The notes below the pieces were generated by a model. It saw only the letters and a list, made by a program, of their open reading frames with translations, searched no databases and was not told where the DNA came from. Position numbers and translations under genes: made by a program. Below, in pieces: positions 3,201 to 39,986 of a stretch of 64,000 bases of DNA. The stretch covers positions 124,001 to 188,000 of the forward strand of contig NZ_CP077769.1 in assembly GCF_020386615.1 (NCBI RefSeq), read 5' to 3'. Numbering within the stretch: position 1 is the stretch's first letter; each line of letters begins with the position of its first letter. Source of the stretch: Chitinophaga pendula (GTDB lineage: Bacteria > Bacteroidota > Bacteroidia > Chitinophagales > Chitinophagaceae).

Positions 3201-3912
3201 AACCATCGAATTCAATAACACTAGCCAGGGAGGCGCCTCCTTCACCTGGGACTTCGGCGACGGAAACACCTCCACCGACGTAAATCCAACACATACTTAC
3301 TCCACACCTGGCACCTACAATATCCACCTGGTAGCCGTAGACAATAACACCTGCAACAAACAGGACGATACCACCAGCACCATCATCATCAGCCCACCGC
3401 CAACAGCTGATTTCGACTTCACACCCAAACAACCAAAAGAAAATACACCGGTATCATTCACCAACCTGTCCAATGGCGCCGTCTCCTACGTATGGAACTT
3501 CGGCGATGGCCACGAATCAACACAGACCAATCCAACCTATCAATACAACAAAACCGGCACCTACGAAGTATGCCTCACCGCCACCAACCAGTTCGGATGC
3601 ATAGATTCCGTCTGCAAACCAGTAAGCGCCATCGTAGTGCCCCTATATGATGTCCCCTCAGCCTTCTCACCAAATGGGGATGGCATCAACGACGTATTCT
3701 ATGTAAAAGGATTCGCCGTCTCCCGCTTCAATATCAAAATATTCAACCGCTGGGGACAACTAGTATTCGAAAGCAACGATATCAACATAGGGTGGGATGG
3801 CAAATTCAAAGGCAGCCTCCAGTCAATGGACGCATACGCCTACGTCATCAACCTGGAATTCAATGATGGTACAAAAGCCAATAAAACCGGCAACCTGACC
3901 CTATTACGGTAA
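241..3912 (+). CDS. Large T9SS-exported surface protein (beta-propeller, PKD repeats, type B sorting domain)
   Basis: Predicted cell-surface or secreted protein of 1,223 residues. Residues 1-27 form a signal peptide ending in MAQ. The next ~260 residues are the conserved N-terminal region found in such proteins (FSENKGQW motif). A long Gly/Thr-rich block of SBBP-like beta-propeller repeats follows to about residue 800. PKD-type domains with FGDG motifs lie at about 870-960, 968-1050 and 1051-1131. Residues 1132-1223 (AFSPNGDGIND, FNRWGQLVF, GWDGK) are the gliding-motility/T9SS type B sorting domain. Known for the family: exported by the type IX system, usually with a PorP/SprF partner. The start is a TTG placed just before the signal peptide; no in-frame ATG fits. 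It is a tandem paralogue of the next gene. The cargo function (adhesion, substrate binding or other) is not evident. Confidence 0.93.
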   Translation: MKLSLYLRCFGCILITWLIGPLNTMAQQYPPAANFTPLSFSENKGQWDKAILYKTDLGGSVITLKKNSFGFLLLNKQDLDQLSEDAHGNYRPGNNDNPHIEHGKVTTPTPASQTPVKENPVLSEQKNPAVRGHYYNVTFLNATDNPQVTADKAQEAYANYFIGNDPSKWASEVKSYQRVNYKNLYPGIDMQVYSEASQLKYDLIVNPGADPAQVKLQYDGATSMEIKKGQLYINTSVGYVIEQSPYAYQYINNQRVSVKVSYQLKNNQVSFRIGNNYDNKYALIIDPTYVFSTLTGAKADNWGFTATYDAQGNFYGGGIVRDANGYPTTPGAVQSVYAGGVDIGITKFSANGRNAIYSTYIGGNSAEQPHSLFVDPQGNLVIAGRTRSGNFPFKTSAGTSGGWDIAVVKLNATGTAITGAIRIGGSADDGVNIRDDREAGPFALLRNYGDDARSEVVLDGAGNIYVASCTRSANFPVTANAYQKTFGGSQDAVVMKIDPTCSSLLWATFLGGNLEDAAYVLAVNGTNSVYVAGGTGSSNFPTTAGSIYNGFRGGICDGFITHLSADGSSILQSTFLGSDNPAADQVYGIQLDAKGFVYVMGTTEGSWPSKQSPGTPTFYNDNSKQFIAKLQPDLSAFIYSTTFGKAASLPSLSPVAFLVDRCENVYVSGWGGGINPQLKYPNSNTFGLPLKDALQSTTDGADFYFFVLQRDATGILYGSYFGGNGLSEHVDGGTSRFDRDGVIYQGICAWCSAPGAPKFRYPVTPGTYATAPPTFCNLGALKIAFNLAGVKAGIKTTGNKNNFCVPATVSFEDTTSTTAQTWEWTVINQAAPVVMTTKDPFTYTFNAVGDYIVRLVKKDPSTCNGADTAFTEIKIREDKATLTFVNRRLEPCEALSYEFDNTGSIAPAGKPFTNKSFVLNFGDGSPADSVGIGVFPHKYQNPGVYNVTMTLVDTNYCNAPETITLQLRVAANVHASFIAPDSACAPATIEFNNTSQGGASFTWDFGDGNTSTDVNPTHTYSTPGTYNIHLVAVDNNTCNKQDDTTSTIIISPPPTADFDFTPKQPKENTPVSFTNLSNGAVSYVWNFGDGHESTQTNPTYQYNKTGTYEVCLTATNQFGCIDSVCKPVSAIVVPLYDVPSAFSPNGDGINDVFYVKGFAVSRFNIKIFNRWGQLVFESNDINIGWDGKFKGSLQSMDAYAYVINLEFNDGTKANKTGNLTLLR

Positions 3913-4243: not shown

Positions 4244-7200
4244 GTGAAATTTACGTCGTATGTTGGTTTGGTAGGATGTTTGCTAATGCTCCTTCCGGCG
4301 TTTTTTCAACCGGCGCAGGCTCAACAGCAGGAAACCAGCAGTAATTTCGCACCCCTCTCATTTTCAGAGAACAAAGGCCAATGGCATAAAGATGTGTTGT
4401 ACAGAACCGACCTCGGTGGCAGCGTAGTTTCTCTCAAAAAGAATGGATTCGGATTCTTCCTGCTAAACAAAGAAGATCAGGATAAACTGTCCGACTACAC
4501 CCACGGACACTACACCCCGGGCAGCGGTGTCAACCCGCATATCGATAACAGCAAGGTCACTACCGCACCTGCTTCACCCACCACCTCCTACCCGGAAGTA
4601 CCAAACGCTCCGCCTCCCGAAGCCCCCAAAGTAAGGGCACATTTCTACAATGTCACCTTCCTCAATGCAGCAGAAAATCCACAGATAACCGCCGATAAAA
4701 CCCAGGAAGGATACGCTAATTACTTCATCGGCAACGAACCGTCCAAATGGGCCTCCGAAGTAAGATCCTACCAACGCGTCAACTATACCGGCCTGTATCC
4801 CGGCATCGACATGCAGGTATACTCCGAAGCCTCCCTGCTGAAATATGACCTGATAGTCAACCCCGGCGCCGATCTCTCCCGCGTCAAATTATTATACAAC
4901 GGCATCACCGGTATCAGCATCAAAAAAGGACAACTACACGTAAATACCTCCGTAGGCGACGTAATAGAACAAACACCCTACGCCTATCAGTTTATTAATA
5001 ACCAACGTGTAATCGTAAAGGTAAGCTATCAGCTCAAGGGCAACCAGGTAGGTTTTAACGTCATCGGCGACTACGATAATAAGTCTCCACTGATCATCGA
5101 CCCCACATACGTCTTCTCCACCCTCACCGGTGCAAAGGCTGACAACTGGGGCTTCACCGCCACCTACGATGCACAGGGTAACTTCTACGGCGGCGGCATC
5201 ATCCGCAACCGCGATTTCTACCCCACCACACCAGGAGCCATCCAAAATGCCTACGCAGGAGGTGCCTCCGATATCGGTATCACCAAATTCAGCGCCAACG
5301 GACGTAGCGTTATATACTCCACCTACATCGGCGGCGGCGGCGATGAACAACCGCACAGCCTCTTCGTCGATGCCCAAGGCAGCCTCGTAATCTCCGGAAG
5401 GACCAACTCGTCCAACTTCCCGTTCAAAACGTCCGTAGGCCCACGCGGCAAATGGGATGCCGCCGTCATCAAACTCAATCCCACCGGCACCGCCATGATA
5501 GGCTCCCTACTCATAGGGGGAACAGAAGACGATGGCGTCAACATCCGCGAAAACAGACAGGCAGGCACCTTCAGCCTCCTCCGTAACTATGGCGACGACG
5601 CCCGCAGCGAAGTAGTCATCGACAACGCCGGATATATCTACATCGCCAGCTGTACCCAATCTGCCAACTTCCCGGTTACCACCAATGCCTACCAGAAAAC
5701 ATTCGGCGGCGTACAGGATGGCGTCGTAATGAAGATAGATCCCACCTGCTCCACCCTCATCTGGGCCACCTTCCTCGGAGGAAGCCAGCAAGATGCCGCA
5801 TACGTACTGGCACTCAACGGCACCAATAGCGTATACGTCGCCGGAGGTACCGCCAGCAACAACTTCCCCACCACCGCAGGAAGCCTGTACCCTAACTACC
5901 GCGGTGGCATCTGCGATGGGTTTGTCACACACCTCTCCGCCGATGGTAGCACCGTCCTGCAAAGCACCTTCCTCGGCGCTGACAACCCTGCACCAGACCA
6001 GGTGTATGGCATACAGCTCGATACAAAAGGCTATATCTACGTAATGGGCACCACAGAAGGCTCCTGGCCCATCAAACAACCCACCGGTACCGCCTCCTTC
6101 TTCAATAACAACTCCAGGCAGTTCATCTCCAAATTGGAAGGTGACCTCTCCGCTTTCGTATACGCTACCACCTTCGGAAAAGCAGGTTCAGCACCCAGCC
6201 TGTCACCTGTCGCTTTCCTCGTCGACCGCTGCGAAAATGTATACGTCTCCGGTTGGGGCGGCGGGATCAACGAACAACTCAAATACCCGAACTCAAATAC
6301 CTTCGGCCTGCCACTGAAAGATCCATTGCAAGCCACCACCGATGGCGCCGATTTCTATTTCTTCGTATTACAACGCGATGCCACCAACATCCTCTTCGCC
6401 AGCTACTTCGGTGGCAACGGCCTGTCCGAACACGTAGATGGCGGCACCAGCCGCTTCGATCGTAATGGCGTCATCTACCAGGGTATCTGTGCCTGGTGCA
6501 GCTCTCCTAACTCACCGTACAAGTTCAGATACCCGGTCACACCTGGCACATACGCCACCACCGCACCTCCATACTGTAACTTCGGCGCCCTCAAAATCGC
6601 ATTCAACCTCGATGGCGTCAAAGCAGGTATCAAAACAACCGACCGCAAAAGAAATTATTGCGTACCGGCCACCATCAGTTTCGAAGATACCACCAGCACT
6701 AACGCTCAAACCTGGGAATGGACCGTGATCAATCAAACCACACCAGTCGTATTGACCACCAAAGATCCATTCACCTACACCTTCAATACCATCGGCGACT
6801 ATATCGTTCGCCTCGTCAAAAAAGATCCCGCCACCTGTAATGGCGCCGATACCGCTTACGCAGAAGTGAAAGTACGCGAAGACAGAGCCACCCTGGCTTT
6901 CGTCAACCGCCGCCTCCAACCTTGCGAAGCCCTCTCCTACGAATTCGATAACACCGGCTCCGTCGCGCCGGCAGGCAAACCGTTCACTAACAAATCATTC
7001 CTGCTCGACTTCGGCGATGGTTCCCGCCCCGACTCCGTCGGCGTCGGCGTATTCCCACATCAATACCAGAACCCGGGCGTATACAACGTCACCATGACGC
7101 TGATAGACACCAACTATTGCAACGCACCCGAAACCATCAATATGCAATTACGGGTAGCCGCCAACGTAGTCGCCAGCTTCACCGCACCCGACAGCGCCTG

Positions 7201-7924
7201 CGTACCCGCTACCATAGAATTCAATAATACCAGCCTGGGTGGCGAAACATTCACCTGGAACTTCGGAGATGGATCTCCCACCTCCAACGAAGTCAACCCG
7301 GTACATGTCTATACCGTACCAGGTACCTACAATATCCACCTCCAGGCCGTAGATAATAACACCTGTAATAAACAAGACGATACGGTCATGACCATCATCG
7401 TCAGCCCTCCGCCAACAGCTGAATTCGACTTCACACCGCAAAAACCACAGGAAAATACACCGGTGTCATTCATCAATCAGTCCAATGGCGCCATCTCCTA
7501 CATATGGGAGTTCGGCGATGGCGAAATATCCACCGCAACTAATCCATCCCATCAATACAACAAAACAGGTACCTACGAAGTATGCCTCATCGCTACCAAT
7601 ACCTTCGGCTGTACCGACACCGTCTGCAAACAAGTGAGCGCGATAGTCGTACCTTTGTACGATGTACCCAACGCCTTCTCACCCAACGGCGATGGCGTCA
7701 ACGATGTATTCTTTGTGAAAGGATTCGGTATCTCCCACTTCAATATCAAAGTGTTCAACCGATGGGGACAACTGGTATTCGAAAGCAACGACCCGAAAAT
7801 AGGTTGGGATGGTAAATTCAGAGGAACTGTACAGTCTATGGATGCTTACGCATATGTAGTGAATATAGAATTCAGCGACGGAACCAGGGCCAACAGAACA
7901 GGAAATGTCACCCTTTTAAGATGA
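4244..7924 (+). CDS. Large T9SS-exported surface protein, tandem paralogue
   Basis: 1,226 residues with the same plan as the preceding gene: signal peptide ending in the QAQ region, FSENKGQW N-terminal region, SBBP-like propeller repeats, PKD domains with FGDG motifs, and a type B sorting domain over the last ~92 residues (NAFSPNGDGVND, FNRWGQLVF). Long stretches match the first copy residue for residue, so this is a tandem duplication that has since diverged. The start is a GTG at the signal peptide, again not ATG. The stop overlaps the start of the SprF-like gene in an ATGA, which implies translational coupling. This copy is therefore the most direct partner of that membrane protein. The ligand or function is unknown. 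Confidence 0.93.
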   Translation: MKFTSYVGLVGCLLMLLPAFFQPAQAQQQETSSNFAPLSFSENKGQWHKDVLYRTDLGGSVVSLKKNGFGFFLLNKEDQDKLSDYTHGHYTPGSGVNPHIDNSKVTTAPASPTTSYPEVPNAPPPEAPKVRAHFYNVTFLNAAENPQITADKTQEGYANYFIGNEPSKWASEVRSYQRVNYTGLYPGIDMQVYSEASLLKYDLIVNPGADLSRVKLLYNGITGISIKKGQLHVNTSVGDVIEQTPYAYQFINNQRVIVKVSYQLKGNQVGFNVIGDYDNKSPLIIDPTYVFSTLTGAKADNWGFTATYDAQGNFYGGGIIRNRDFYPTTPGAIQNAYAGGASDIGITKFSANGRSVIYSTYIGGGGDEQPHSLFVDAQGSLVISGRTNSSNFPFKTSVGPRGKWDAAVIKLNPTGTAMIGSLLIGGTEDDGVNIRENRQAGTFSLLRNYGDDARSEVVIDNAGYIYIASCTQSANFPVTTNAYQKTFGGVQDGVVMKIDPTCSTLIWATFLGGSQQDAAYVLALNGTNSVYVAGGTASNNFPTTAGSLYPNYRGGICDGFVTHLSADGSTVLQSTFLGADNPAPDQVYGIQLDTKGYIYVMGTTEGSWPIKQPTGTASFFNNNSRQFISKLEGDLSAFVYATTFGKAGSAPSLSPVAFLVDRCENVYVSGWGGGINEQLKYPNSNTFGLPLKDPLQATTDGADFYFFVLQRDATNILFASYFGGNGLSEHVDGGTSRFDRNGVIYQGICAWCSSPNSPYKFRYPVTPGTYATTAPPYCNFGALKIAFNLDGVKAGIKTTDRKRNYCVPATISFEDTTSTNAQTWEWTVINQTTPVVLTTKDPFTYTFNTIGDYIVRLVKKDPATCNGADTAYAEVKVREDRATLAFVNRRLQPCEALSYEFDNTGSVAPAGKPFTNKSFLLDFGDGSRPDSVGVGVFPHQYQNPGVYNVTMTLIDTNYCNAPETINMQLRVAANVVASFTAPDSACVPATIEFNNTSLGGETFTWNFGDGSPTSNEVNPVHVYTVPGTYNIHLQAVDNNTCNKQDDTVMTIIVSPPPTAEFDFTPQKPQENTPVSFINQSNGAISYIWEFGDGEISTATNPSHQYNKTGTYEVCLIATNTFGCTDTVCKQVSAIVVPLYDVPNAFSPNGDGVNDVFFVKGFGISHFNIKVFNRWGQLVFESNDPKIGWDGKFRGTVQSMDAYAYVVNIEFSDGTRANRTGNVTLLR

Positions 7925-11285: not shown

Positions 11286-12032
11286 TCAGGTCACTTTCAG
11301 ATATTCCAGGAACTCTGATTTATACGTAACCCCAATAGGCAATGAAATAGACGTCGCCTCCTTACTACGCAACACCACCTGGTTGCCCTCTATCGCAACG
11401 ATCTTATCAAGTGCTACTATATAAGAGTTGTGTATCCGGTAAAATAACCGGGAAGGCAACTTCGTCTCCAACGTTTTCATATTCATCAATGCTACGATCT
11501 TCTCCCGCCCGCAATGAAAAGCAACATAGTTTTTTAACCCCTCTATGTAATCCACGTCAGCATAGTTGATCTTGATATGTTTGCCCTTAAACTCCCCCTT
11601 CACAAAAATATAATCACTCTCCGGCGATACACTGACCTCCGGAAGCGCCTTCGCAGGCGCCGGGTTCGACTCCATCTGAAAAAGCTTCAATGCCTTATGA
11701 CTGGCCTTCAGAAATCTTTGGTAGGTAATAGGCTTTAATAAATAGTCGATCACATCATTCTCAAATCCTTCAATGGCATATTTACTGTACGCCGTCGTTA
11801 AGATCACCTTGTTGTTATTCAGGTTTAAGATCTTTAATAAACTGATACCCGATACCTCCGGCATATGAATATCCAGAAATACCAGCTGTACACCACTGGA
11901 TGTGATCTCCGCAATCCCGTCAAAAGGTTTGGTCGAACTACCCGCCAACTGTAGATAAGGCGTCTGCTGTATATACTCCTTTAAGATATCTACAAAGTGC
12001 TGCTCATCGTCTATGATATAACAAGAGATCAT
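11286..12032 (-). CDS. LytTR-family response regulator
   Basis: 248-residue two-component regulator. The receiver domain spans 1-120 with the acidic pair D8/D9, phospho-acceptor D54 (FLDIHMP), T79/T80 and K100 (LLKP), so it is fully phosphorylatable. A linker leads to a LytTR DNA-binding domain at about 140-245 (DYIFVKGEF, VDYIEGLKNYV, RIHNSYIV). LytTR proteins bind short direct repeats and activate transcription. It is last in a minus-strand operon and its start overlaps the stop of the upstream kinase by 4 bp. It is therefore the output of the two kinases before it. Its DNA targets are not identifiable here; autoregulation is possible. Confidence 0.95.
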   Translation of the reverse strand: MISCYIIDDEQHFVDILKEYIQQTPYLQLAGSSTKPFDGIAEITSSGVQLVFLDIHMPEVSGISLLKILNLNNNKVILTTAYSKYAIEGFENDVIDYLLKPITYQRFLKASHKALKLFQMESNPAPAKALPEVSVSPESDYIFVKGEFKGKHIKINYADVDYIEGLKNYVAFHCGREKIVALMNMKTLETKLPSRLFYRIHNSYIVALDKIVAIEGNQVVLRSKEATSISLPIGVTYKSEFLEYLKVT

Positions 12033-13144
12033 GTTGTCAGAATTAACGGGAATGGTATTTTATTCGCTGATTTGGCATAAATGGTTAAATACACACTGTA
12101 CACATCATCATCTTCTTCCGTATTGAACTGATGACTGTCTTCGTAAAAGTTTTCCAATTGTGTCCGGATATAAGTTAAGCCAAATCCTGTAGATATTTCC
12201 TTCGGACCCGTCCTTTTTTTATTTCGGGTACTGAAATAGATCTCATTTTCCCTGATGTCTAAAGTGATCACCAACGGATATTTAATATCATGCAGATCCC
12301 CGTGTTTAAAAGCATTTTCTACAAACGTGATTAGCAGATGAGGTAGTATACGATGCCGGTCCGTATGACCACGCTGCACAAAATGTATATGTACATCATT
12401 ATTATACCGCATCTCATAAATAGAAATAAGATGGCGGATATTCTTCACCTCCTCCGTCAGAGAGATCTTATCATCATCGTCTGGCAATTGCGTCGACGAC
12501 CGTATAATACTGCTCAAGGCCAGCATTCCCTGACCTACCTCACCATGAGTAGTAGCAATCTTATCATGAAAGCTGCTGATCGTTTTGATCAGAAAACTTG
12601 GATTAATACGCGTCCTTAACAGAAAGTTATCTAGCGTCAGCTTCTGTTGCTGTAATAATAACTGGTCCTTCTCCCGCTCTATGATCGCTGCCGCAGCAAG
12701 CCTGCGTGTTCTGCCCTTCTGTATCAACATCTTTCCGAAACCATACCCGGATGAATATACGATGTATTGAAACCACCACCAGGCATTGATCAGGAACAGG
12801 TCCATAGGGTCTATGTTCGCAATGGATGGAGGACGGTTCGTCAGAAAAGGCATACCGTAAAATGCCATCCACCACCGGATAAACCAATTGTACAACAACG
12901 TCAGCACCAACCCGGCAATGAAATAACCATACCGCTTATTCGCAAAATATTTGGGCAACAGAAAATCAGCATTGAAATAAAATATACTGGCACAGATCGC
13001 ATAAGAAGCGATCGCCTCATATACCACCACCGCAAACTTATTTTTCATATTGGCATAGATCGCCGTAGCAAACGTGGCATACAATATCCAGATAAGCAAA
13101 TGGATCAATACCGTCCGGAAATGTTTCTTATTGATAGCTGGCAT
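12029..13144 (-). CDS. LytS-type sensor kinase lacking the phospho-acceptor His (ATP-binding half)
   Basis: 371 residues. Four predicted membrane segments lie at roughly 10-31, 38-60, 72-95 and 115-139, followed by a coiled coil and a LytS-type kinase region. The canonical NPHFLFN motif reads NPSFLIK: the catalytic His is Ser183 (AGT at 12596-12598) and the Asn is Lys187. The ATPase half is intact, with N-box VENAFKHG (N277) and G-box GFGL (320-323). It can therefore probably bind ATP but cannot autophosphorylate at the usual site. It overlaps the upstream kinase gene by 17 bp and the LytTR gene by 4 bp. Inference: it phosphorylates the partner kinase in trans. A scaffold role is the alternative. 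Confidence 0.92.
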   Translation of the reverse strand: MPAINKKHFRTVLIHLLIWILYATFATAIYANMKNKFAVVVYEAIASYAICASIFYFNADFLLPKYFANKRYGYFIAGLVLTLLYNWFIRWWMAFYGMPFLTNRPPSIANIDPMDLFLINAWWWFQYIVYSSGYGFGKMLIQKGRTRRLAAAAIIEREKDQLLLQQQKLTLDNFLLRTRINPSFLIKTISSFHDKIATTHGEVGQGMLALSSIIRSSTQLPDDDDKISLTEEVKNIRHLISIYEMRYNNDVHIHFVQRGHTDRHRILPHLLITFVENAFKHGDLHDIKYPLVITLDIRENEIYFSTRNKKRTGPKEISTGFGLTYIRTQLENFYEDSHQFNTEEDDDVYSVYLTIYAKSANKIPFPLILTT

Positions 13145-14261
13145 AACTTAACGAATGTGCAGTGGATAAACTGGTAGGGGAGGGGCTCGTCTGAATGTTC
13201 AGGCAAATACGGTAACGCCGGTTATGCTCTTCATAAATAAAAAAACAATGCTCACCATACAAAGTCACCAGGTAGTCTTTCAATTGGTTCATCTTACTTT
13301 CCAACAGGATGTTCTGCTGAATCAACGTCCTGCTGGCAGCAATACTCAATGTCAGCTGATGATTGCTCTCCTGCAGCGAGATATTCACCTCATCATGCGC
13401 CGCATCAAAGTTGATATTGCTGATCACACTGTCAATAATGGTTACCAGTATATTAGGCGTTACAGGATGATGCCCGCTCTCCAGCGACGTATCCAGCGAT
13501 ATCCGCACCGCCCCAGCATAACACAACTGGTAAATATAAATAAGGTGCGCGATATTCTCCGCTTCTTCCTCTATGGAAATATCCTCCTGCTCCTGCTGGT
13601 ACTGCAACGAAGACCGCATAATGTTGGTCAACGCAATAATACCTTGCGCGATCCCAGGATAGGGCTTGCACAACTTATTATAGAAATAACCCAACGTATT
13701 GAACAGAAAATGAGGATTCACCTGCGCCTTTAATATCTCATTCTGCACCAGTAACTGTTGCTGCTTTAATATCAGGTTCTCCGTTTCCTGCCTCGCCAGG
13801 TCCATCTGCGTATTATGCAACTCCTTCTCCCGTTGGATCAGCGTGTTTAATAACCAATATCCCATCGAATACAACATGAACTGGAACCAACCCCATAAGG
13901 CTTTCAGGAACATAGGGATAAAAGGCTGCTGCGGCGGACGCGACGGCAACAGGTGAGGAAGCAACTGGCTGGATATCACATAGCGGAACAACACTACCAC
14001 CGACAACATCCCGATCGCCGCAAGACCATACAACACATACTTTTGCTGACCCAATAACCTGGGAAGTATCACAAGAGAATGCAAATAAAAAACACCTACG
14101 TTAATGAGGTAATAACCAACACTCTCATAAACGAAAGGAAATACTTTCTTTGACAAATGTAGCTGCACACTGATAGCAAAGGAGATATATAGTATCCATA
14201 CCACCGTATGGATAATGATCTCTTTAAGGGTCACAGATGGCTGTTTGCTCATAGGGGGCAA
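13128..14261 (-). CDS. LytS-type sensor kinase with intact His but degenerate ATPase (acceptor half)
   Basis: 377 residues with the same architecture as its neighbour: four membrane segments (about 14-32, 40-62, 74-97, 116-140), a Gln-rich coiled coil and a LytS-type domain. NPHFLFN is intact with His184 (codon CAT at 13710-13712). The ATPase half is eroded. At the N-box position the sequence is IIDSVISN instead of xVENAxKHG (Asn becomes Ser278), and no GxGL box is found in the C-terminal ~90 residues. It can therefore accept phosphate but probably cannot bind ATP. It is a paralogue of the next gene, overlaps it by 17 bp and lies 8 bp after the S41 protease gene. It is the natural heterodimer partner. 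Confidence 0.92.
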   Translation of the reverse strand: MPPMSKQPSVTLKEIIIHTVVWILYISFAISVQLHLSKKVFPFVYESVGYYLINVGVFYLHSLVILPRLLGQQKYVLYGLAAIGMLSVVVLFRYVISSQLLPHLLPSRPPQQPFIPMFLKALWGWFQFMLYSMGYWLLNTLIQREKELHNTQMDLARQETENLILKQQQLLVQNEILKAQVNPHFLFNTLGYFYNKLCKPYPGIAQGIIALTNIMRSSLQYQQEQEDISIEEEAENIAHLIYIYQLCYAGAVRISLDTSLESGHHPVTPNILVTIIDSVISNINFDAAHDEVNISLQESNHQLTLSIAASRTLIQQNILLESKMNQLKDYLVTLYGEHCFFIYEEHNRRYRICLNIQTSPSPTSLSTAHSLSYASYQ

Positions 14262-14269
14262 TTTTGGTG

Positions 14270-15709
14270 TTAATTCCGCCAGCTTTTCTGGTGTTGGAAA
14301 TAGGTGTTAATGTATGATACCCAATCAGTAACCTCACTGATAGGGATATCCGGGGGCAATCCTATATTGTCAATGGGATGCTCAGGCACCCACATCCCTT
14401 TGGAGGTGGGACAGTAGTAAATATAGTGTTTACATGGCATAGTTCGAGGACCCACAAGATTAAAATAGTCAAAGCTACCGGCAGAGTTCCTGCCAAATAC
14501 CTTTACCTTTTTACTCTGCCGCGCTCGCATGATCAGATCCTCCGCAGCACTTACACTGCGCTCGTTGATCAACAACGCTACCCTGGCAGGATACGAATAC
14601 ACCGTATCCGACTGAAATATCTCCTCCTCCGTGATCACATAAGTATCCGGATGTGCTTTCATACTCACCAGCAAAGGCCCCAGCACCTCCTTATTCTTAG
14701 CAGGGATACGAGGGTCTGCCACCAACTCTTCAAACAAAGCCGTATTGTCACGCGTAGCCAACACCTTCGCCCGCGGAGCCCGGATCTCCCCAGTATAAAT
14801 AATAGGCAACAAACTCTCAAAAGCAATACTATACCCCCCACGATTATTACGAAGGTCCACGATCAGGTTAGGCCGGCTCGTAATATCCGGTAAATGCTGC
14901 CTGATCAGGCTGTCTATTACCGACTTATACACAATACTGAAACTATTCAACCGCAGATAGGTAGTCAGCGGATTTAATATCTTAAAAGCAATCACCGCAT
15001 CATCAGCCGGATCTGCTGCACGCCGGTTATTTCCCCCCGCCAACAACTTCCTCCATTCCGTACCAGCAAAACGAAGTACCGCACTTTCCTCCTCTGCCAC
15101 CACACCCGACATCTCCTCCTCATGATCCCGGTTCCGGTACATTACCTGATAACTATTATGACCCGTCGATAGCATCTCAAACTTGATCTGCCCCGGCATC
15201 CAGAATACACTGTCCGCCTTCAACACCACCGCCTGGTACCGCCGCTCAGCATTCCGCAGCAACGCTACCTCAAAAGCACTGTCAGCAGAAAGCCAGATCC
15301 CTTCCAATCCAATACCTCCCTTCCCAACACCGGCAAAACGCCGGCGTACCGCCCCGATATCTATAGCCATAGCAGGAGCCGCCGCAAATACCGAACGTAC
15401 GTACGCCTGCTCCCCAACTCCTCCCGACAAACGCAGAATCAGGTGTTTGTCCTTGAAAAAGCCCAGCCAGCTCCGCAATACCGATGGGCATCGCTCCGCC
15501 GTAGCATAGGCCGCCAGCCTACGCAAACTATCCGTGTAATATTGATATTGCACAACGGTCCGGCTATTGACCTTATCCTCGAAACCCGGATAATTCTCCG
15601 TGATCTTTCGTACTAAATACTCAAAATTATTAAGGCAGTGACAGTCTTGTGAATAAGTGATAAAAGGAACGAAAAAGAACAGTAAAACTAAAAACGCGGA
15701 CTTATTCAT
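14270..15709 (-). CDS. Secreted S41-family serine protease
   Basis: 479 residues. A signal peptide (residues 1-20, LLFFFVPFITYS) directs it to the periplasm or outside. The C-terminal half is an S41 (C-terminal processing peptidase-like) fold, with DLRNNRGG near 290 and the nucleophile region RSVSAAEDL with the likely catalytic Ser at ~387. At the place where Prc/CtpA carry their general-base Lys (about 25 residues on) this protein has NSAGSF. It thus belongs to the Lys-less S41 branch common in Bacteroidota, or has reduced activity. No PDZ domain is obvious. It lies between the lanthipeptide-like precursor (102 bp upstream) and the two kinases (8 bp downstream). Inference: it trims the exported peptide, or degrades it to end the signal. 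Confidence 0.88.
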   Translation of the reverse strand: MNKSAFLVLLFFFVPFITYSQDCHCLNNFEYLVRKITENYPGFEDKVNSRTVVQYQYYTDSLRRLAAYATAERCPSVLRSWLGFFKDKHLILRLSGGVGEQAYVRSVFAAAPAMAIDIGAVRRRFAGVGKGGIGLEGIWLSADSAFEVALLRNAERRYQAVVLKADSVFWMPGQIKFEMLSTGHNSYQVMYRNRDHEEEMSGVVAEEESAVLRFAGTEWRKLLAGGNNRRAADPADDAVIAFKILNPLTTYLRLNSFSIVYKSVIDSLIRQHLPDITSRPNLIVDLRNNRGGYSIAFESLLPIIYTGEIRAPRAKVLATRDNTALFEELVADPRIPAKNKEVLGPLLVSMKAHPDTYVITEEEIFQSDTVYSYPARVALLINERSVSAAEDLIMRARQSKKVKVFGRNSAGSFDYFNLVGPRTMPCKHYIYYCPTSKGMWVPEHPIDNIGLPPDIPISEVTDWVSYINTYFQHQKSWRN

Positions 15710-15811: not shown

Positions 15812-16021
15812 CTATTTAGGCAGGCCCGCACTTCCTCCGCCGGTTCCCTCGTTCGTACCCACTACACTGGTGGTCTCCGAACAGGTCCATGACGCAATAC
15901 CGGTGTTAACCGTAGTAGGTGTGAGCACGTGCGGCCCATGCCAGAAACTTAATTTCGCGATCTTGATTCGGTTGAGTTTGAGTGCTGGGTTGCCACTGGA
16001 CTTAACTTGTTTGGTTTTCAT
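15812..16021 (-). CDS. Candidate class I lanthipeptide-like RiPP precursor
   Basis: 69 residues from the ATG at 16021 (a TTG at 16027 would add two). The N-terminal part contains LKLNRIKIAKLS, which matches the Bacteroidetes class I lanthipeptide leader pattern (LxLNKxTIAKLx) position for position. The remainder is rich in Thr, Ser and Gly, with a single Cys in SWTCSETTS and a GTGGGSAG tail. This suggests dehydration and at most one thioether ring. There is no signal peptide. No LanB, LanC, radical-SAM or peptide transporter gene occurs in the window, so modification and export would be in trans. A TATCTTTG box lies 59 nt upstream. It heads the S41-kinase-kinase-LytTR unit. The RiPP call rests on the leader motif; the modification is inferred. 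Confidence 0.7.
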   Translation of the reverse strand: MKTKQVKSSGNPALKLNRIKIAKLSFWHGPHVLTPTTVNTGIASWTCSETTSVVGTNEGTGGGSAGLPK

Positions 16022-16658: not shown

Positions 16659-17342
16659 ATGAATATGCTTCCACAATTAGCCGTCTTTGATATCGCCGGC
16701 ACCACCCTGCATGATGAATCCAATGTCGGACTAGTACTCCGTAAAACACTCGTTGACGCCGGTGTCGAGGTATCCCTCGAAGAAGTCAATGAAGTAATGG
16801 GTTATGCTAAACCATTTGCTATCACACATTTACTGTCAATAAAAAAGGACCCTAGAGCCGAAGAGCCTGCCAGCATCGATACCCTCCATACCCGGTTCGT
16901 CCAGGACATGATCACACACTACAAAACCAACGAAAACGTAAGGGAAAAATCAGGTACCTCCGACGTATTCCGCGCACTTAAACAAAAAGGAATCAAAATA
17001 GCCCTCGATACCGGCTTCGATCGCGCCATCACCGAAGTGATCCTCCAACGCGTCGGCTGGACAGAACAAGGCCTGGTAGATATCGTCGTAACCAGCGACG
17101 AAGTACCCCATGGCAGACCATACCCATACATGATCTATCGCGCTATGGAACAACTGGGTATCCGCAGCATACAGGATGTCATGAAAATAGGCGATACCAT
17201 CTCCGACCTCGAAGAAGGTACCAACGCAGGCTGCAAATACGTGATCGGCGTAACAACCGGCGCCTATAGCCGCCCGGAACTCGAAAAAGGCCCTCATACC
17301 CACCTCGTGGCCCATCTCAATGAAGTCCTGACACTTTTCTGA
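16659..17342 (+). CDS. Phosphonatase-like HAD hydrolase
   Basis: 227-residue HAD-superfamily hydrolase, closest by motif to phosphonoacetaldehyde hydrolase (PhnX) and its sister group TIGR03351. Motif I is FDIAGTT (nucleophile D11), motif II TGF near 112 and motif III GDTISDLEEG near 178. MGYAKPF at 47-53 aligns with the PhnX cap motif and puts K51 where PhnX has its Schiff-base lysine. This hints at C-P bond cleavage, although that alignment is by eye. The next gene, 56 bp downstream, is an FAD amine oxidase of the type that accompanies this hydrolase in other genomes. Joint use of an aminophosphonate is likely but the substrate is unproven. Confidence 0.82.
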   Translation: MNMLPQLAVFDIAGTTLHDESNVGLVLRKTLVDAGVEVSLEEVNEVMGYAKPFAITHLLSIKKDPRAEEPASIDTLHTRFVQDMITHYKTNENVREKSGTSDVFRALKQKGIKIALDTGFDRAITEVILQRVGWTEQGLVDIVVTSDEVPHGRPYPYMIYRAMEQLGIRSIQDVMKIGDTISDLEEGTNAGCKYVIGVTTGAYSRPELEKGPHTHLVAHLNEVLTLF

Positions 17343-17398
17343 TCTTTCCCCTTTTTTTAGAATAGTAGTATATATTAGCTAAACAAGCAAGCAGTCCC

Positions 17399-18529
17399 AT
17401 GCAACAACAACAGGCCAATATAGCAGTGATCGGCGCTGGCATCGTAGGCCTCGCCATAGCATACCACCTCTCCCGCCAGGGTAAAAAAGTAGTCGTATTC
17501 GAACGCAATAGCAAAGCCATTAGCGCCTCCATACGCAACTTCGGCCTCGTATGGCCCATCGGTCAGACCGCCGGGAAAATGTACCAACGCGCCATGAACA
17601 GCAGACGTACCTGGCAGGAACTGGCCGCCAAAACCGGCCTCCAATGCCAGGAAACCGGCTCCCTCCACCTCGTATACAACCAAGACGAACTGGCAGTACT
17701 CGAAGAATTCATACAAAATGCACCGGCTGCCGGATACGACTGTCAACTCCTCACCCCACAACAGATCGCCAACCACAGCAACGCTGTAAAAACAACCGGC
17801 CTGCTGGGCGGAATGTGGAGCCCCACAGAAATGACCGTCAACCCACGACAAGCTAGCGCCGCTATCGCCGACTACCTCCAGGAACAAGGAGTGACCTTTC
17901 GCTTCGGCACCGCCATCAACAACATCACCATGCCGTTCCTCCAAACGCCTGCCGAAAAATGGCAGGTCGAACAGGTATACGTCTGCAGCGGCGCCGACTT
18001 CGAAACACTATATCCGGCCGAATACGCCAACGCATCCCTCACCAAATGCAAACTGCAAATGATGCGGACCGTCGCCCAGCCAAACAACTGGCAACTAGGT
18101 CCCGCCCTCTGTGCCGGACTTACCCTCCTGCACTACAGCGCATTCGCCCATTGCAATAGCCTCGCCGCCTTGAAAGATCGTATCAACGCCGAAATGCCAG
18201 CATACCAACAATATGGCATCCACCTCCTGGTATCCCAGAACGGTGCCGGCGAACTGACCATCGGCGACTCACACGAATATGGTCCCGACTTCGAACCTTT
18301 CGACAAAGAAAATATCAATCAACTCATCCTGGACTACCTCCACACCTTCTTGGTAGCACCAGACTTCACCATACAAGAACGCTGGCATGGCATCTATCCC
18401 AAACTCACCAATGGACAAACCGATATCGTCCTCTCCCCCGAACCAAACGTCACTATCGTAAATGGCCTCGGCGGCGCAGGGATGACCTTGTCATTCGGCC
18501 TGGCCGAAGAACTGGTAGCAAAGACATAG
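17399..18529 (+). CDS. FAD-dependent amine/amino-acid oxidoreductase (TIGR03364-like)
   Basis: 376-residue flavoprotein of the D-amino-acid oxidase/glycine oxidase fold. The N-terminal Rossmann motif GAGIVG is at 12-17 and is followed by an acidic end to the second strand (VVFE). The C-terminal NGLGGAGMTLSFG returns to the FAD site. Family knowledge: TIGR03364 oxidases are found in operons with TIGR03351 phosphonatase-like hydrolases and are proposed to deaminate an aminophosphonate to an aldehyde. The gene order here fits that pairing. It follows the hydrolase by 56 bp and is closed by a strong terminator, so the two form their own transcription unit. Confidence 0.85.
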   Translation: MQQQQANIAVIGAGIVGLAIAYHLSRQGKKVVVFERNSKAISASIRNFGLVWPIGQTAGKMYQRAMNSRRTWQELAAKTGLQCQETGSLHLVYNQDELAVLEEFIQNAPAAGYDCQLLTPQQIANHSNAVKTTGLLGGMWSPTEMTVNPRQASAAIADYLQEQGVTFRFGTAINNITMPFLQTPAEKWQVEQVYVCSGADFETLYPAEYANASLTKCKLQMMRTVAQPNNWQLGPALCAGLTLLHYSAFAHCNSLAALKDRINAEMPAYQQYGIHLLVSQNGAGELTIGDSHEYGPDFEPFDKENINQLILDYLHTFLVAPDFTIQERWHGIYPKLTNGQTDIVLSPEPNVTIVNGLGGAGMTLSFGLAEELVAKT

Positions 18530-18555
18530 ATCCCATATTGTGTTTCACCAAATAA

Positions 18556-18589
18556 AAAGCAGGCGATTCTCCAATCGCTTGCTTTTTTT
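18556..18589 (+). terminator. Rho-independent terminator
   Basis: An AGCAGGCGATT / AATCGCTTGCT stem with a CTCC loop and seven T. The A-rich left flank means it could also work on the minus strand. Confidence 0.8.
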
Positions 18590-18940
18590 ATGTAAATAAT
18601 TAGGATATGATGAACTTTATTGCTATATTTTTGTAAAATTACGCGTAATCATTACCTGTAATCCGGGCAAATGATGTAATATAACCACGTTATCATGCAT
18701 ACAGGTAGCTGAGTATCCCCCTTCATTGCCCCGGCAGGTATAACACTATCAACCATCACGCCGGCAATGGCAACCAGGAACGATACGCAAGTACCCCCGT
18801 CACCTATGCTATGATAAACGGAAAATATGCGATACTTGTCACCATTATAAATCATGAAAATAAATAGGCAAACTATATAAAACTCGTTTGCAGTACTTAC
18901 TCGGTAAGTCACTGCACGTTCATAACGTGTTAAATGTAAT

Positions 18941-18976
18941 AGCAGGTTTCTTTTAAGTTACCTGCTTTTCTTTTTT
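18941..18976 (+). terminator. Orphan Rho-independent terminator
   Basis: An AGCAGGT / ACCTGCT stem, 12-nt loop and T-rich tail, with no annotated plus-strand gene immediately upstream. Confidence 0.6.
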
Positions 18977-19070
18977 ATCCACCCACCGCCCTCCAATACC
19001 ACCGCCCACACAATTCTGTGCATTACTAACCCGAAATCCCTATTTTTATTCACTAAACCAAAAGTAGATT

Positions 19071-20552
19071 ATGGCTCCAGCCGTGTTCGTATTATTCATA
19101 GCTTGCTATTTCTTCGTCTTGCTATTGATATCCTATATCACCACCCGTAATGCCGACGCCCAGTCTTATTTCACCGGCAACCGCAACTCCGTATGGTACC
19201 TCGTAGCCATCGGCATGATCAGCGATTCCCTGTCCGGTGTCACCTTCATATCCGTACCCGGCAAAGTAAGCGTAGCACAATTCTCATATCTCCAGGTCAT
19301 CCTGGGCTATGTACTCGGCTACCTGATCATCGCAAATGTACTCCTGCCCTTATACTACCGGCGTAACCTTACCTCTATATATACCTACCTGCAGGAACGA
19401 TTCGGCCCCGTCACACAAAAAACAGGTGCCGTATTTTTTATACTCTCCCGCTTGGTAGGCGCCGCCGCTCGCCTCTACCTCGTCGCCGGCGTATTGCAAA
19501 TATTCGTTTTCGATTACTATGGCATCGACTTCCGCGTATCCGTATCCGTCATGATCATACTCATGCTGCTATATACCTATCGCGGTGGTATCAAAACCCT
19601 GGTATGGACAGATGCACTCCAGTCCATCTTCCTCCTCGGTGGCGTCGTTCTCACCATCGTCGTGATCTGCCGGGAACTTCACTGGGGCCCCGCCGACCTG
19701 GTCAGCAACGTCGTCAACAGCGAATACTCCCGTACCTTCTTCTGGGACTGGAAAGCAGCCAACTTTTTCCCCAAAGACTTCTTCGGCGGAATGATGATCG
19801 CCGTCACCATGACCGGCCTCGATCAGAATATGATGCAGAAAAACCTGAGCTGCCGCACACTGGGCGAAGCACAAAAGAACATATACTCCTTCAGCATCAT
19901 GCAACTGATCGTAAATGTCTTCTTCCTCTCCCTCGGTATCCTCCTCTATCAATACGTGACCTCCAAAGGCATCGCCATCCCTAAAGACGCAGTAACCGGC
20001 AGATTGCTGACAGATAACCTGTTCCCCATGCTGGCCCTCAACTACCTGGGCACATTCGCCAGTATCGTATTCATCGTAGGCCTCACCGCCGCCACCTTCA
20101 GCAGCGCAGACAGCGTACTGACCACCCTCACCACCTCGTTCTATATCGATATACTCAACCTCGACCCGGAAACAGTGACCCGCCGCAACCGCAATATCAA
20201 AAATGCAGTACACATAGGCTTCGCAGCACTTCTACTGCTCACCATCCTCCTGTTCCGCGCCTATAACCAACAGGCCATCATCGACTCCGTCCTGTTCCTC
20301 GCTACCATCACATACGGACCCATGCTAGGCCTGTTCGCATTCGGCATCCTCAACAAACGCCCCACACTCGATGGCGCCTCCATCATCGTATGCCTTATCG
20401 CACCGGCACTTTGCTTTATTCTGAGCAAATATTCGGCACAATGGCTAAATGGTTATAAATTCGGTAACGAATTATTGATTGTAAACGGGCTGTTCACCTA
20501 CTGTGGCTTATTATTGTTTTCCCGTAAACCACAAGCGGTACAAACAACCTGA
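19071..20552 (+). CDS. Sodium:solute symporter (SSS family)
   Basis: 493-residue inner-membrane transporter with about 13 hydrophobic segments, beginning with an N-terminal membrane helix and no cleavable signal. The family motif YRGGIKTLVWTDALQ and the TGLDQNMMQKNL loop are diagnostic of sodium/solute symporters, which move sugars, amino acids, carboxylates or similar using the sodium gradient. The substrate cannot be assigned. The LOG-family gene follows after 25 bp and is probably co-transcribed. The phosphonate-like pair upstream is separated by two terminators, so there is no firm functional link. Confidence 0.9.
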   Translation: MAPAVFVLFIACYFFVLLLISYITTRNADAQSYFTGNRNSVWYLVAIGMISDSLSGVTFISVPGKVSVAQFSYLQVILGYVLGYLIIANVLLPLYYRRNLTSIYTYLQERFGPVTQKTGAVFFILSRLVGAAARLYLVAGVLQIFVFDYYGIDFRVSVSVMIILMLLYTYRGGIKTLVWTDALQSIFLLGGVVLTIVVICRELHWGPADLVSNVVNSEYSRTFFWDWKAANFFPKDFFGGMMIAVTMTGLDQNMMQKNLSCRTLGEAQKNIYSFSIMQLIVNVFFLSLGILLYQYVTSKGIAIPKDAVTGRLLTDNLFPMLALNYLGTFASIVFIVGLTAATFSSADSVLTTLTTSFYIDILNLDPETVTRRNRNIKNAVHIGFAALLLLTILLFRAYNQQAIIDSVLFLATITYGPMLGLFAFGILNKRPTLDGASIIVCLIAPALCFILSKYSAQWLNGYKFGNELLIVNGLFTYCGLLLFSRKPQAVQTT

Positions 20553-20577
20553 TGGTTTTCACTAAATGTAATTGCAG

Positions 20578-21276
20578 ATGAACGACAGCTTCAAAAATCT
20601 CAAAGAAAGAGACTGGACAGAAACCAAAGCACATTCCAGCTGGCAGATATTTAAGATCATGGCCGAATTCGTCGAAGGCTTCGAAGCCCTCGCTAAAATA
20701 GGCCCCTGCATCTCCATCTTTGGCTCCGCCCGCACAAAAGAAGGCAACAAATATTATGAACTCTCACAAGAAGTAGCTCGCAGACTGGCAGAAGAAGGAT
20801 TCGGTATCATCTCCGGCGGAGGCCCCGGCGTTATGGAAGCCGCCAACAGAGGCGCCCAACAAGCCAAAGGCAAATCCGTAGGCGTGAACATCACCCTCCC
20901 ACACGAACAATATCCTAATCCATATGTCGACCACGACAAAAATCTACACTTCGACTACTTCTTCGTCCGTAAAGTCATGTTCACCAAATACTCCCAGGGC
21001 TTCGTTATGATGCCGGGCGGATTCGGTACCATGGACGAATTTTTCGAAGTAGCAACCCTCATCCAAACCAAAAAAATGACGGATACACCACTCGTACTCG
21101 TCGGTAGCGAATACTGGGGCGGCCTGCTCGACTGGATCCGGACCACCATGATGGAAAAAGAAAGCAACATCTCCCCCGAAGACCTCGGACTTCTCAAACT
21201 ATTCGATACAGCAGACGAAGTAGTAGAATACTTCCGCGTATTCTACACGACCAACAAATTGCGGCCTAACTTCTAA
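20578..21276 (+). CDS. LOG-family (TIGR00730) nucleotide phosphoribohydrolase-like protein
   Basis: 232 residues from the ATG at 20578; a TTG two codons earlier is less likely. Rossmann-fold LOG protein with SGGGPGVMEAANRG near 80-93 and the signature PGGFGTMDE near 146, which together form the nucleotide-monophosphate site. Known relatives hydrolyse cytokinin riboside 5'-monophosphates or purine nucleotides; many are misannotated as lysine decarboxylases. In a soil Bacteroidota a nucleotide-salvage or repair role is as likely as cytokinin release. It follows the symporter closely and ends in a terminator. Confidence 0.88.
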   Translation: MNDSFKNLKERDWTETKAHSSWQIFKIMAEFVEGFEALAKIGPCISIFGSARTKEGNKYYELSQEVARRLAEEGFGIISGGGPGVMEAANRGAQQAKGKSVGVNITLPHEQYPNPYVDHDKNLHFDYFFVRKVMFTKYSQGFVMMPGGFGTMDEFFEVATLIQTKKMTDTPLVLVGSEYWGGLLDWIRTTMMEKESNISPEDLGLLKLFDTADEVVEYFRVFYTTNKLRPNF

Positions 21277-21310
21277 AAAAAGAACGCAACGCTGAAAAAT
21301 CACTTCCTTA

Positions 21311-21345
21311 AAAGGCTACCGAAAGGTGGCCTTTTATATTTTTCA
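21311..21345 (+). terminator. Rho-independent terminator after LOG gene
   Basis: An AAAGGCTACC / GGTGGCCTTT stem with a GAAA tetraloop, followed by an interrupted T-run. Confidence 0.65.
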
Positions 21346-21768
21346 AAAACACCGCTCCTTTGAAATTCATAAAAATGTCTTTGAACAGACGATCCATTTG
21401 CATGACAGCACAACACAACTTTACACCTGAAATGTTACCGTGGAAGTACAAAAAGGTCTTCCGGAAAAGATAGTGTGCTCTACACACTCATCGGCCCCCC
21501 ACTTACCCCGTATATCATAAAAATCCTTGTAGAATCGTTAATACCTTGGGCGACAACTACCTGCCGATATAAAAAATGAAATATTAAGTAGCTGAAAGCT
21601 AAATAGTTAAGCTGGAGTAAGTCAACCCGCGCAGCGCCTGGTAAGAGCTTTTATACGTGTTCTACCTGCTGTCTGCCGTATTCCACACCCCCAGGTGCGG
21701 AGGGCTGCAGCCATCCTTCAATATGCCAGAAAATCCTAAAATCAGCAAACTCTCACATATAAAAATCT

Positions 21769-21776
21769 TAGGTTTG
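21769..21776 (+). promoter_or_regulatory. Bacteroidetes -7 box for O-methyltransferase
   Basis: TAGGTTTG matches TAnnTTTG, 14 nt before the ATG, implying a very short leader. Confidence 0.4.
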
Positions 21777-21790
21777 CAGAAAATTTATAT

Positions 21791-22432
21791 ATGGATGTAA
21801 TTCCAGCTGCCGTAGAAGCGTTTGCAGAGAAATATACCAGCCCTGAGACAGAGGTATTACGCCGCCTGAACAGGGAAACTCATCTGGAAGTAGAACGCCC
21901 GCACATGTTAAGCGGACACCTGCAAGGGCAATTCTTTCAGCTGATCAGCCATATGATCCGTCCTCGCCGCATCCTGGAAATTGGCACATATACCGGTTAT
22001 TCCGCTATCTGCCTCGCCCAGGGCCTCACAAACGATGGATTACTATATACGATCGATATCAACGAAGAAATGGAAGACCGTTGCCTGCGCTATTTTAAAG
22101 AAGCAGGTTTGGCAGATAAAATAAAGATGCACATCGGAAAAGCCGTGGACATCATCCCGCAGATGAACGAAACATTCGACCTCGTTTTCATCGATGCCGA
22201 CAAAGCTGGCTACGATGACTATTACGACCTCGTATGGGACAAACTCCGGACCGGTGGATTCATCCTGGCCGATAACGTCATCTATCACGGCGAAGTACTA
22301 CTACCCGCCGCCGAACAAAGCGCCAACGCCAAAGCAATGGTGCGGTTCTGTGAAAAAGTATTGGCCGATGGCCGTGCCGAAAAATTGCTACTTACTATCC
22401 GCGATGGTGTACTCATCATCCGGAAAAAATAA
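21791..22432 (+). CDS. Class I SAM-dependent O-methyltransferase (catechol-type family)
   Basis: 213 residues, a normal length for the small cation-dependent O-methyltransferase family. SAM motif EIGTYTGYSAICL is near 63-75. FIDADKAGYDDYYD near 136 gives the metal-binding Asp, and LADNVIYHG near 160 the second metal site. The N-terminus (FAEKYTSPETEVLRRLNRET) is typical. Members methylate catechols, caffeoyl-CoA or other small hydroxylated molecules. The substrate is unknown. It is a clear paralogue of the O-methyltransferase in the NRPS cluster at 41.9 kb. It has its own promoter-like box and no metabolic partner beside it. Confidence 0.9.
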   Translation: MDVIPAAVEAFAEKYTSPETEVLRRLNRETHLEVERPHMLSGHLQGQFFQLISHMIRPRRILEIGTYTGYSAICLAQGLTNDGLLYTIDINEEMEDRCLRYFKEAGLADKIKMHIGKAVDIIPQMNETFDLVFIDADKAGYDDYYDLVWDKLRTGGFILADNVIYHGEVLLPAAEQSANAKAMVRFCEKVLADGRAEKLLLTIRDGVLIIRKK

Positions 22433-22493
22433 TAAATGATCACGTGAAGAGAAAACCGTGAATCGCTCAGAAACCCATTAAATTCAACCATAC

Positions 22494-23909
22494 ATGCAAG
22501 TAAGAAAATTCTTGTCAGTGGTCTGTTTTCTTATTGGCTGCATGCCCTGTTTGAAGGCGCAGAACATGACGACGGCGCAGTATATCGCCACGTATAAAAA
22601 TATTGCCATAGAGGAAATGAACCGTTCCGGCGTACCAGCCGCCATCAAACTGGCACAGGGCATCCTGGAAACACAGTCAGGCAACGGTTGGCTGGTAAAC
22701 AATTCCAACAACCACTTCGGCATCAAATGTAAAAACAACTGGATAGGTCCCTCCGTCAACTATGACGACGACGCCCGCCAGGAATGCTTCCGCAAATACG
22801 ATAACGCAAGCGCCTCCTATCGCGACCATTCTAACTTCCTCCGCAATAACCCGCGCTATGCCTTCCTCTTCCAGTTCGGACCAGAAGACTATCGCTCCTG
22901 GGCATACGGCCTCAAACAGGCAGGATACGCTACCAGCCGCACCTATCCGCAACAGCTCATTAAGATCATAGAAGATAATAACTTACAGGACTACACGCTG
23001 ATTGCCATGGGCAAAAAAAGCAGCAGCACCGATACCCAACAGAACGACCCGGTATACGCTGCCGCACCCGCTCCGGCATCACCTAAGAACGATCGCGCTA
23101 ACTTCCTTACCAACCCGCAGCCTCCCAAAGAATACCCTAAAGGTGTATTCGAAATCAATGGCCGTAAAGTACTATACCTGCCCGCAGGTACCTCCCTTAT
23201 CCAGCTCGCCGATCAACGCGATATCCGCCTCCGCAACCTCGTAAAATACAATGACCTGCTCGACGATTCCCCCTTGTCTAAAGGCATGTTCGTATTCTTA
23301 CAGAAAAAAAGCAAAAAAGGCAAAGACGACTACCACATCGTACAACCGGGAGAAAATATGCACGATATCGCCCAGGCCGAAGGCATACAGCTTCGCTGGC
23401 TCCAGCGTAGAAATAAAATGGAATACGGACAAGAACCCGCCGCAGGCGAAAAACTCGCCCTCGATGGATACGCCTCCCGTACCCCCCGCCTTCGCTCCGA
23501 AGCCGTATTACGCCCGCTCGACGAACAACACGAAGATTTCTCCCCTCGCCAATTCGTAAAAGGCATCAAAGAAGAAATCGCCAAGTCAAATAACAACGGC
23601 CAGATCGCCGAAGCTCAACCCAATCCCCAGGCCTCCAATAACCTACCCCCCGGTATGGTCGAAGACCTGAAGAAAATGGGAACCGTAAAGCCTTCCGGCC
23701 CCGCTCTACCCCCCGCATACCCGGCCAGCGCACCGGCCCCCTCAGAGCCCTCCCGCGCAGGCGCAATGCAATACCACGACGTACAGCCCAAAGAAACGCT
23801 GTTCGCCATCGCCAAACGTTACAATGTCAGCATATCACTCCTCCAGGAATGGAACAACCTGCAAGGATACGATATCAAAATAGGACAACGACTATTGGTA
23901 GGTAAATAA
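22494..23909 (+). CDS. Secreted glucosaminidase with LysM domains
   Basis: 471-residue cell-wall hydrolase. The signal peptide has a small Cys-containing hydrophobic core and ends near LKAQ. The mannosyl-glycoprotein endo-beta-N-acetylglucosaminidase (FlgJ-like) domain covers about 30-165, with ILETQSGNGWL carrying the likely catalytic Glu and NNHFGIKCK. LysM domains lie near 277-320 (YHIVQPGENMHDIAQ) and 425-471 (YHDVQPKETLFAIAKRYNVS), with a Pro-rich linker between. Known role of the family: cleavage of peptidoglycan glycan strands during growth or division. It lies 61 bp after the methyltransferase and may be read through from it. Confidence 0.9.
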   Translation: MQVRKFLSVVCFLIGCMPCLKAQNMTTAQYIATYKNIAIEEMNRSGVPAAIKLAQGILETQSGNGWLVNNSNNHFGIKCKNNWIGPSVNYDDDARQECFRKYDNASASYRDHSNFLRNNPRYAFLFQFGPEDYRSWAYGLKQAGYATSRTYPQQLIKIIEDNNLQDYTLIAMGKKSSSTDTQQNDPVYAAAPAPASPKNDRANFLTNPQPPKEYPKGVFEINGRKVLYLPAGTSLIQLADQRDIRLRNLVKYNDLLDDSPLSKGMFVFLQKKSKKGKDDYHIVQPGENMHDIAQAEGIQLRWLQRRNKMEYGQEPAAGEKLALDGYASRTPRLRSEAVLRPLDEQHEDFSPRQFVKGIKEEIAKSNNNGQIAEAQPNPQASNNLPPGMVEDLKKMGTVKPSGPALPPAYPASAPAPSEPSRAGAMQYHDVQPKETLFAIAKRYNVSISLLQEWNNLQGYDIKIGQRLLVGK

Positions 23910-23973
23910 CCAGGACGCTTAAATAATCGTATATAAAGAGCACACAAAATCTGTAATCTACAATTTGAAGAGA

Positions 23974-24516: not shown

Positions 24517-24537
24517 AAATAACATCAGTATAAAGCA

Positions 24538-24575
24538 GGGGCGGCACCATAGCATAGGCCGCCCCCCGCCTTTTT
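24538..24575 (+). terminator. Rho-independent terminator after hpt
   Basis: A GGGGCGGC / GCCGCCCC stem with a 12-nt loop, then CCGCC and five T. Confidence 0.8.
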
Positions 24576-24653
24576 ATCACCACCCCCATATCCCTGCTTT
24601 CCCGACTCCGTATTATTCTGTAACTTGAGCACCTCAACCCCGGGGTAAAACAG

Positions 24654-39908: not shown

Positions 39909-39986
39909 AGTGCATTGTTTTAGGTAGAGTGGCAATGATAGAATGACAAGAACAGGAGCGCTTGTTGGCCTCGGCTGCGGTTGAAA

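Follow-up and report, generated by a model that had tools for sequence, protein, structure and literature searches.

Reciprocal loss of the acceptor histidine and the ATP site in two adjacent LytS-type kinases of Chitinophaga pendula, a candidate heterodimeric sensor kinase

The DNA analyzed here (the window) is a stretch of 64,000 nucleotides from Chitinophaga pendula, corresponding to positions 124,001-188,000 of contig NZ_CP077769.1 in assembly GCF_020386615.1. A nearly gapless cluster of four genes is located on its minus strand, encoding an S41 peptidase (14270-15709; PF03572), two LytS-type kinases, here called B (13128-14261) and A (12029-13144), and a LytTR-type response regulator of 248 amino acids (11286-12032; PF00072 and PF04397). 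The peptidase gene ends 8 bp upstream of the gene for kinase B, those for B and A share 17 bp (13128-13144), as had been indicated in an earlier note on this DNA and was corroborated by direct reading, and those for A and the regulator overlap by 4 bp. The overlap between the kinase genes suggests that their translation may be coupled, and hints that the two proteins may form a complex. Both kinases are composed of a membrane part, a DHp region and a CA (ATP-binding) domain, and both exceed the curated Pfam cut-off for PF06580 (25.2 bits), with 52.8 bits for B and 37 bits for A, these being the two lowest scores among the 39 PF06580 matches in the 7.66-Mb genome. Kinase A has 371 amino acids, and B has 377 when counted from a TTG start, with an alternative ATG three codons further on, which is the position at which a homologue 97% identical to B (P0001) starts. 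The regulator presents the receiver with a phospho-acceptor Asp and the LytTR domain by which this type is defined; residues D8, D9, D54, T80 and K100 of the receiver were all found in the translation, and the protein is 56-58% identical to four orthologues.

The motifs of both kinases were established by reading of the sequence and alignment. In place of NPHFLFN, kinase A has NPSFLIK (residues 181-187; 12584-12604, minus strand, as for all the features of the pair), with Ser183, encoded by AGT at 12598-12596, replacing the acceptor His and Lys187 replacing Asn, while its N-box (ENAFKHG, residues 276-282; 12299-12319) and its G-box (GFGL, residues 320-323; 12176-12187) are intact. Kinase B retains NPHFLFN (residues 182-188; 13698-13718), where His184, with codon CAT at 13712-13710, is the predicted phospho-acceptor. 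According to the alignment, its N-box is degenerate (DSVISNI, residues 277-283; 13413-13433), with Ser278 (AGT at 13430-13428) instead of Asn, and ESK is found where GxG is expected (residues 321-323; 13293-13301). Of the features that characterize LytS-type kinases, A has the N-box Asn and the GxG and lacks the acceptor His, and B has the acceptor His and lacks the other two. The central claim of the earlier note, i.e. that A is devoid of the acceptor His with its ATP boxes intact and B the reverse, is thus borne out, and the ATP site and the phospho-acceptor lie, as far as sequence can tell, on separate proteins, which is the defining trait of a split kinase.

The extent of these losses was evaluated by aligning A and B with 12 intact relatives and scoring only the columns invariant in all 12, the His helix being taken as residues 176-206 of A, limits that were set after the losses had been seen. 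Of the 37 invariant CA columns, 34 are kept in A and only 9 in B, with values of 25-30 for six more distant intact paralogues. In the His helix, with 22 invariant columns, B keeps 19 and A 11, the six paralogues keeping 13-15, so that the helix of A is only moderately below them save for His183 and Asn187, which are the telling losses. Considering the columns in which a single one of the two kinases departs from the invariant residue, all 25 such columns of the CA domain are departures of B, and 11 of the 14 in the His helix are departures of A, which means that the losses are sorted by domain. The Fisher value for the sorting (2e-7) is descriptive, since the limits of the helix were chosen post hoc and the columns are interdependent. 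The reciprocal loss between A and B is real and domain-sorted. The previous wording, by which each copy had lost exactly what the other kept, holds with respect to reciprocity, but the losses turned out to be wider: B departs at 28 of the 37 CA columns, well beyond its N- and G-boxes, and A has also lost Asn187. Two artefacts that had been named as possible refutations could be discarded, namely a misalignment, given that no gap interrupts the alignment in either motif and the pattern is domain-wide, and a sequencing error at codon 12596-12598, given the many concerted substitutions in A, which differs at 18 of 51 invariant DHp columns, nine of them within residues 179-194.

The earlier note had also proposed to determine whether the losses are conserved. 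This could be ascertained for B in one homologue: the full-length, 97%-identical P0001 has the same losses. The 90% cluster of A includes a second member. When scored on the family profile, the CA letters of B were above 2000 of 2000 shuffles (z 6.6), and the probability of finding no stop in 106 random codons with the composition of B is 0.0018, which serves as a crude yardstick. The nine invariant CA residues that B retains (P269, L272, T274, L296, I318, L331, Y335, Y350 and L354) look structural, and the domain looks still constrained and apparently folded. Neither gene qualified as a decaying pseudogene, the frames being open and the CA domain of B fitting the family profile. A broader form of decay, in which both kinases are inactive and the regulator works either unphosphorylated or by means of acetyl phosphate, would be in line with the long branches of both kinases in the tree described below (2.15 changes per column for A and 4.55 for the stem of B). 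This explanation seems quite unlikely to us, however, in view of the open and overlapping frames, the full length of B in its close homologue, losses that are sorted by domain and not spread, the constraint still visible in the CA domain of B, and a regulator that has kept its receiver residues and its identity to the orthologues.

Among 294 homologous proteins, a set that includes A itself and P0001, both the His and the Asn are present in 289. The five exceptions are A, P0001 and three proteins replaced at the His alone, i.e. P0153 (Asp), P0154 (Asn) and P0225 (Asp). A collection of 193 loci contained 98 non-identical kinases, 95 of them with both residues, the rest being A, B and one truncated by the end of its stretch, which a longer stretch showed to be complete and to carry both residues; A and B aside, His and Asn are present in every kinase of these loci in which they are readable. 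P0153 and P0154 are LytS-type kinases from metagenomes, 73% identical to each other, in which the acceptor His is replaced by Asp or Asn, FLF is followed by Arg-Lys, and the N- and G-boxes are preserved; from their sequences they are candidates for an independent A-like half. Relatives of P0153 (35-43% identical), found in 15 of 294 genomes of the family and in two named contigs, have the His. A scan of named genomes with B gave no match. In addition, 394 genomes of the family were searched with a DNA pattern for NPxFL(F/Y)N in which x is S, T, C, R, W or a stop, a pattern that misses further replacements such as Asp, Asn and Gln, and that A itself would escape. It was found at 54 places in 49 of the 394 genomes, and its reversed control in about 44 genomes, a similar frequency that makes chance matches expected; none of the 54 stretches corresponds to a His-substituted kinase of the A/B family.

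A single kinase was present in all of 19 related loci, which were hand-picked and five of which are only 4 kb long. The order of genes was peptidase-kinase-regulator in 10 of them, peptidase-kinase in 2 and kinase-regulator in 6, with a kinase alone in one 4-kb stretch, the S41 gene thus adjoining the kinase in 12 of the 19. Pair searches scored only the top candidates of each genome (at most 24 or 25 for the genus and 6 for the family) under E cut-offs and were not exhaustive; no second adjacent same-strand pair was found among the matches listed for 79 genomes of the genus, and no other one among those listed for 294 genomes of the family. One further pair of same-strand neighbours, in locus L108, came out of the scan of all loci and was dropped as a second tandem pair of this kind, since the longer stretch L194 revealed two complete kinases, with His and Asn in both. 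These two LytS-type kinases lie in series (L194, 3071-6819, minus strand), each with a gene behind it whose start resembles that of a response regulator, and the second has NIGL where others have G-x-G.

A tree was built with 25 kinases, comprising A, B, 17 close rows and six more distant paralogues. A and B cluster with the 17 closest rows against the six paralogues with a support of 100/99, and they appear as sisters in the best tree, a grouping that is unsupported (35/0). The simplest history would be that a complete kinase was duplicated in tandem and that the copies then underwent reciprocal loss. The earlier note had counted orthologues with all the motifs in a single kinase as evidence against a split system. 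Kinases of this kind are indeed what the relatives examined have at this position, and we read them as the state before duplication, because no relative was seen with two kinases there, one of them complete. The low support for A and B as sisters, along with the fact that A is closer to the kinase of the relative G026 (43% identity) than to B (27%), would also agree with a second kinase of the same clade having been inserted beside the resident one, with the losses taking place afterwards and the working of the pair unchanged. Nevertheless, the low identity between A and B can be explained by the long branch of B, and no relative examined has two kinases at the locus, so that we consider insertion possible but rather unlikely.

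The overlapping genes, the intact LytTR regulator and the single complete kinase of the relatives are compatible with a split heterodimeric kinase. According to our proposal, one complete LytS-type kinase located between the S41 peptidase and the LytTR regulator would have become two in this lineage, and the copies would then have shed complementary halves of the catalytic cycle. A and B, co-produced from overlapping genes, would dimerize through their DHp helices; the CA domain of A would take Mg-ATP and phosphorylate His184 of B in trans; and B would dock the regulator through its family-like His helix and hand the phosphate to Asp54. Since A:A could not be phosphorylated and B:B would be unable to use ATP, only A:B would be competent as a kinase, jointly gated by two differing membrane parts, and B without A may act as the phosphatase of the regulator. 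Judging from the residues kept and lost, we consider it reasonably probable that A and B form an obligate heterodimer, with trans phosphorylation of His184 in B by A and subsequent transfer from B to Asp54. A purely regulatory role for A or B would also fit the sequence. The proposed mechanism would require trans phosphorylation, and none of the literature consulted establishes this mode for the LytS-type family. Kinase dimers can phosphorylate in trans, and mutants without the His and mutants without the ATP site complement each other. The heterodimer reading rests on this background and on the precedent of CheA3/CheA4.

Given the 37 further PF06580 matches in the genome, B could instead be an acceptor/phosphatase fed by another kinase of the cell, with A being an ATP-sensing or allosteric pseudokinase that never phosphorylates B. 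A precedent for a dead kinase acting with a paralogue is provided by Corynebacterium glutamicum, where, in the available part of the report, a ChrS variant with a ruined CA domain works with HrrS; native ChrS and HrrS heterodimerize in a two-hybrid assay, and no significant heterodimer was seen with truncated ChrS (PMC9491836). That variant, unlike A and B, arose by a frameshift in laboratory evolution, and its His is dispensable (PMC9491836). Such a role would be at odds with the near-complete set of invariant CA residues in A, N- and G-boxes included. Furthermore, the best match of A in its own genome after B has only 29% identity (E 5e-38), so that no close intact third copy was seen, and we regard this possibility as unlikely. 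Membrane, DHp and CA parts together constitute the usual dimerizing architecture of such kinases. Both A and B retain the three of them, which argues against A being a separate kinase that phosphorylates B homodimers, a very improbable arrangement even if it has a parallel in a split CheA system, in which the separate P1 domain, borne by the partner, is the substrate of the kinase protein (PMC3591291, available text).

With respect to the signal, a small peptide of 69 amino acids is encoded upstream of the S41 gene (15812-16021, minus strand), which by eye only resembles a class I lanthipeptide precursor; it had no NCBIfam match up to E 1 and did not qualify as an NF038153 leader. Small peptides are also seen by eye upstream of the S41 gene in relatives. 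Four peptides were tested, and those of L079 and L085 match NF038153 (class I lanthipeptide leader), while no match was obtained for those of the window and L080. Some more distant kinases of the group are near lanthipeptide-type enzymes: a neighbour of 999 amino acids in L082 matches TIGR03891, and L085 and L086 contain long proteins that resemble it, as judged by eye only. No modification enzyme was recognized among the window genes scanned, a scan that left out most genes of 16659-26420. A peptide-linked signal for the A/B system is plausible. In L081, three related small peptides (54, 53 and 56 amino acids) are encoded in a row (5156-6105, plus strand) upstream of an S41-kinase-regulator arrangement. 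Elsewhere in the window, a non-ribosomal peptide synthetase of 3713 amino acids (28848-39989, minus strand) has Condensation (four stretches), AMP-binding (three) and PP-binding (three) domains, with a methyltransferase and a sodium:solute symporter downstream, and a protein of 1223 amino acids (241-3912, plus strand) carries DUF7948, PKD domains and a CHU_C type IX secretion signal, the product of the next gene (4244-7924) being similar by eye.

Several known systems share part of these traits. Engineered EnvZ or NtrB mutants that lack either the His or the ATP site complement each other in trans, and complementation between half-dead subunits is a classic way of proving in the laboratory that kinases act in trans. 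Those pairs carry the same two lesions on two subunits, but they were made in the laboratory, whereas in A and B the lesions are fixed in the genome. The Mycobacterium tuberculosis kinases Rv0600c and Rv0601c belong to another family and represent one protein divided in two, with the ATP part on one chain and the His on the other, as opposed to the reciprocal loss in full-length proteins observed here. They cooperate with TcrA (PMC9274095, available text), and the resemblance lies in the presence of two kinase genes for one regulator. The principle of the split kinase is not new, since 711 of 42417 HisKA proteins (1.7%) could be split bifunctional kinases, according to the available part of PMC3591291. 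In the same source, neither CheA3 nor CheA4 of Rhodobacter sphaeroides autophosphorylates alone, their mixture labels CheA3, and the acceptor protein is also a phosphatase. The likeness to A and B, as predicted for the latter, consists in ATP-binding and phospho-acceptor functions being on two proteins; however, CheA3 is devoid of P3 and P4 and CheA4 of P1, both being chemotaxis proteins (PMC3591291), whereas A and B are full-length membrane proteins of the LytS type that have lost residues, not domains. The combination of a PF06580 sensor kinase and a LytTR regulator is shared with BtsS/BtsR and YpdA/YpdB, each described in the available text of their reports as one kinase with one regulator (PMC5552118, PMC10653868), in contrast to the two incomplete kinases preceding one regulator here. 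A literature search, with most subscription papers outside its reach, returned no LytS/LytTR system split by reciprocal residue loss between full-length paralogues. Within the literature searched, therefore, what appears to be new is the route, namely a reciprocal loss of residues, not domains, by two full-length membrane paralogues that precede a single LytTR regulator.

We lean, if slightly, towards considering this pair a natural obligate heterodimeric sensor kinase, originated by tandem duplication and reciprocal active-site loss in full-length membrane paralogues, in which a formerly self-sufficient homodimer would have given way to two subunits, each providing what is missing in the other and together operating as a two-input gate. 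If this is true, it would represent a natural example of a homodimer turned into an obligate heterodimer once its gene was duplicated, a process investigated elsewhere in yeast paralogues and by biophysical modelling (PMC6711710, PMC11066126, available text), and it would imply that this kinase phosphorylates in trans. Should B alone retain phosphatase activity, which is a prediction only, kinase and phosphatase would be separated, a situation linked to switch-like output in the available text of PMC3591291. A pair of this kind would also be useful as a small membrane system for testing the switch-like behaviour that this work predicts for split kinases.
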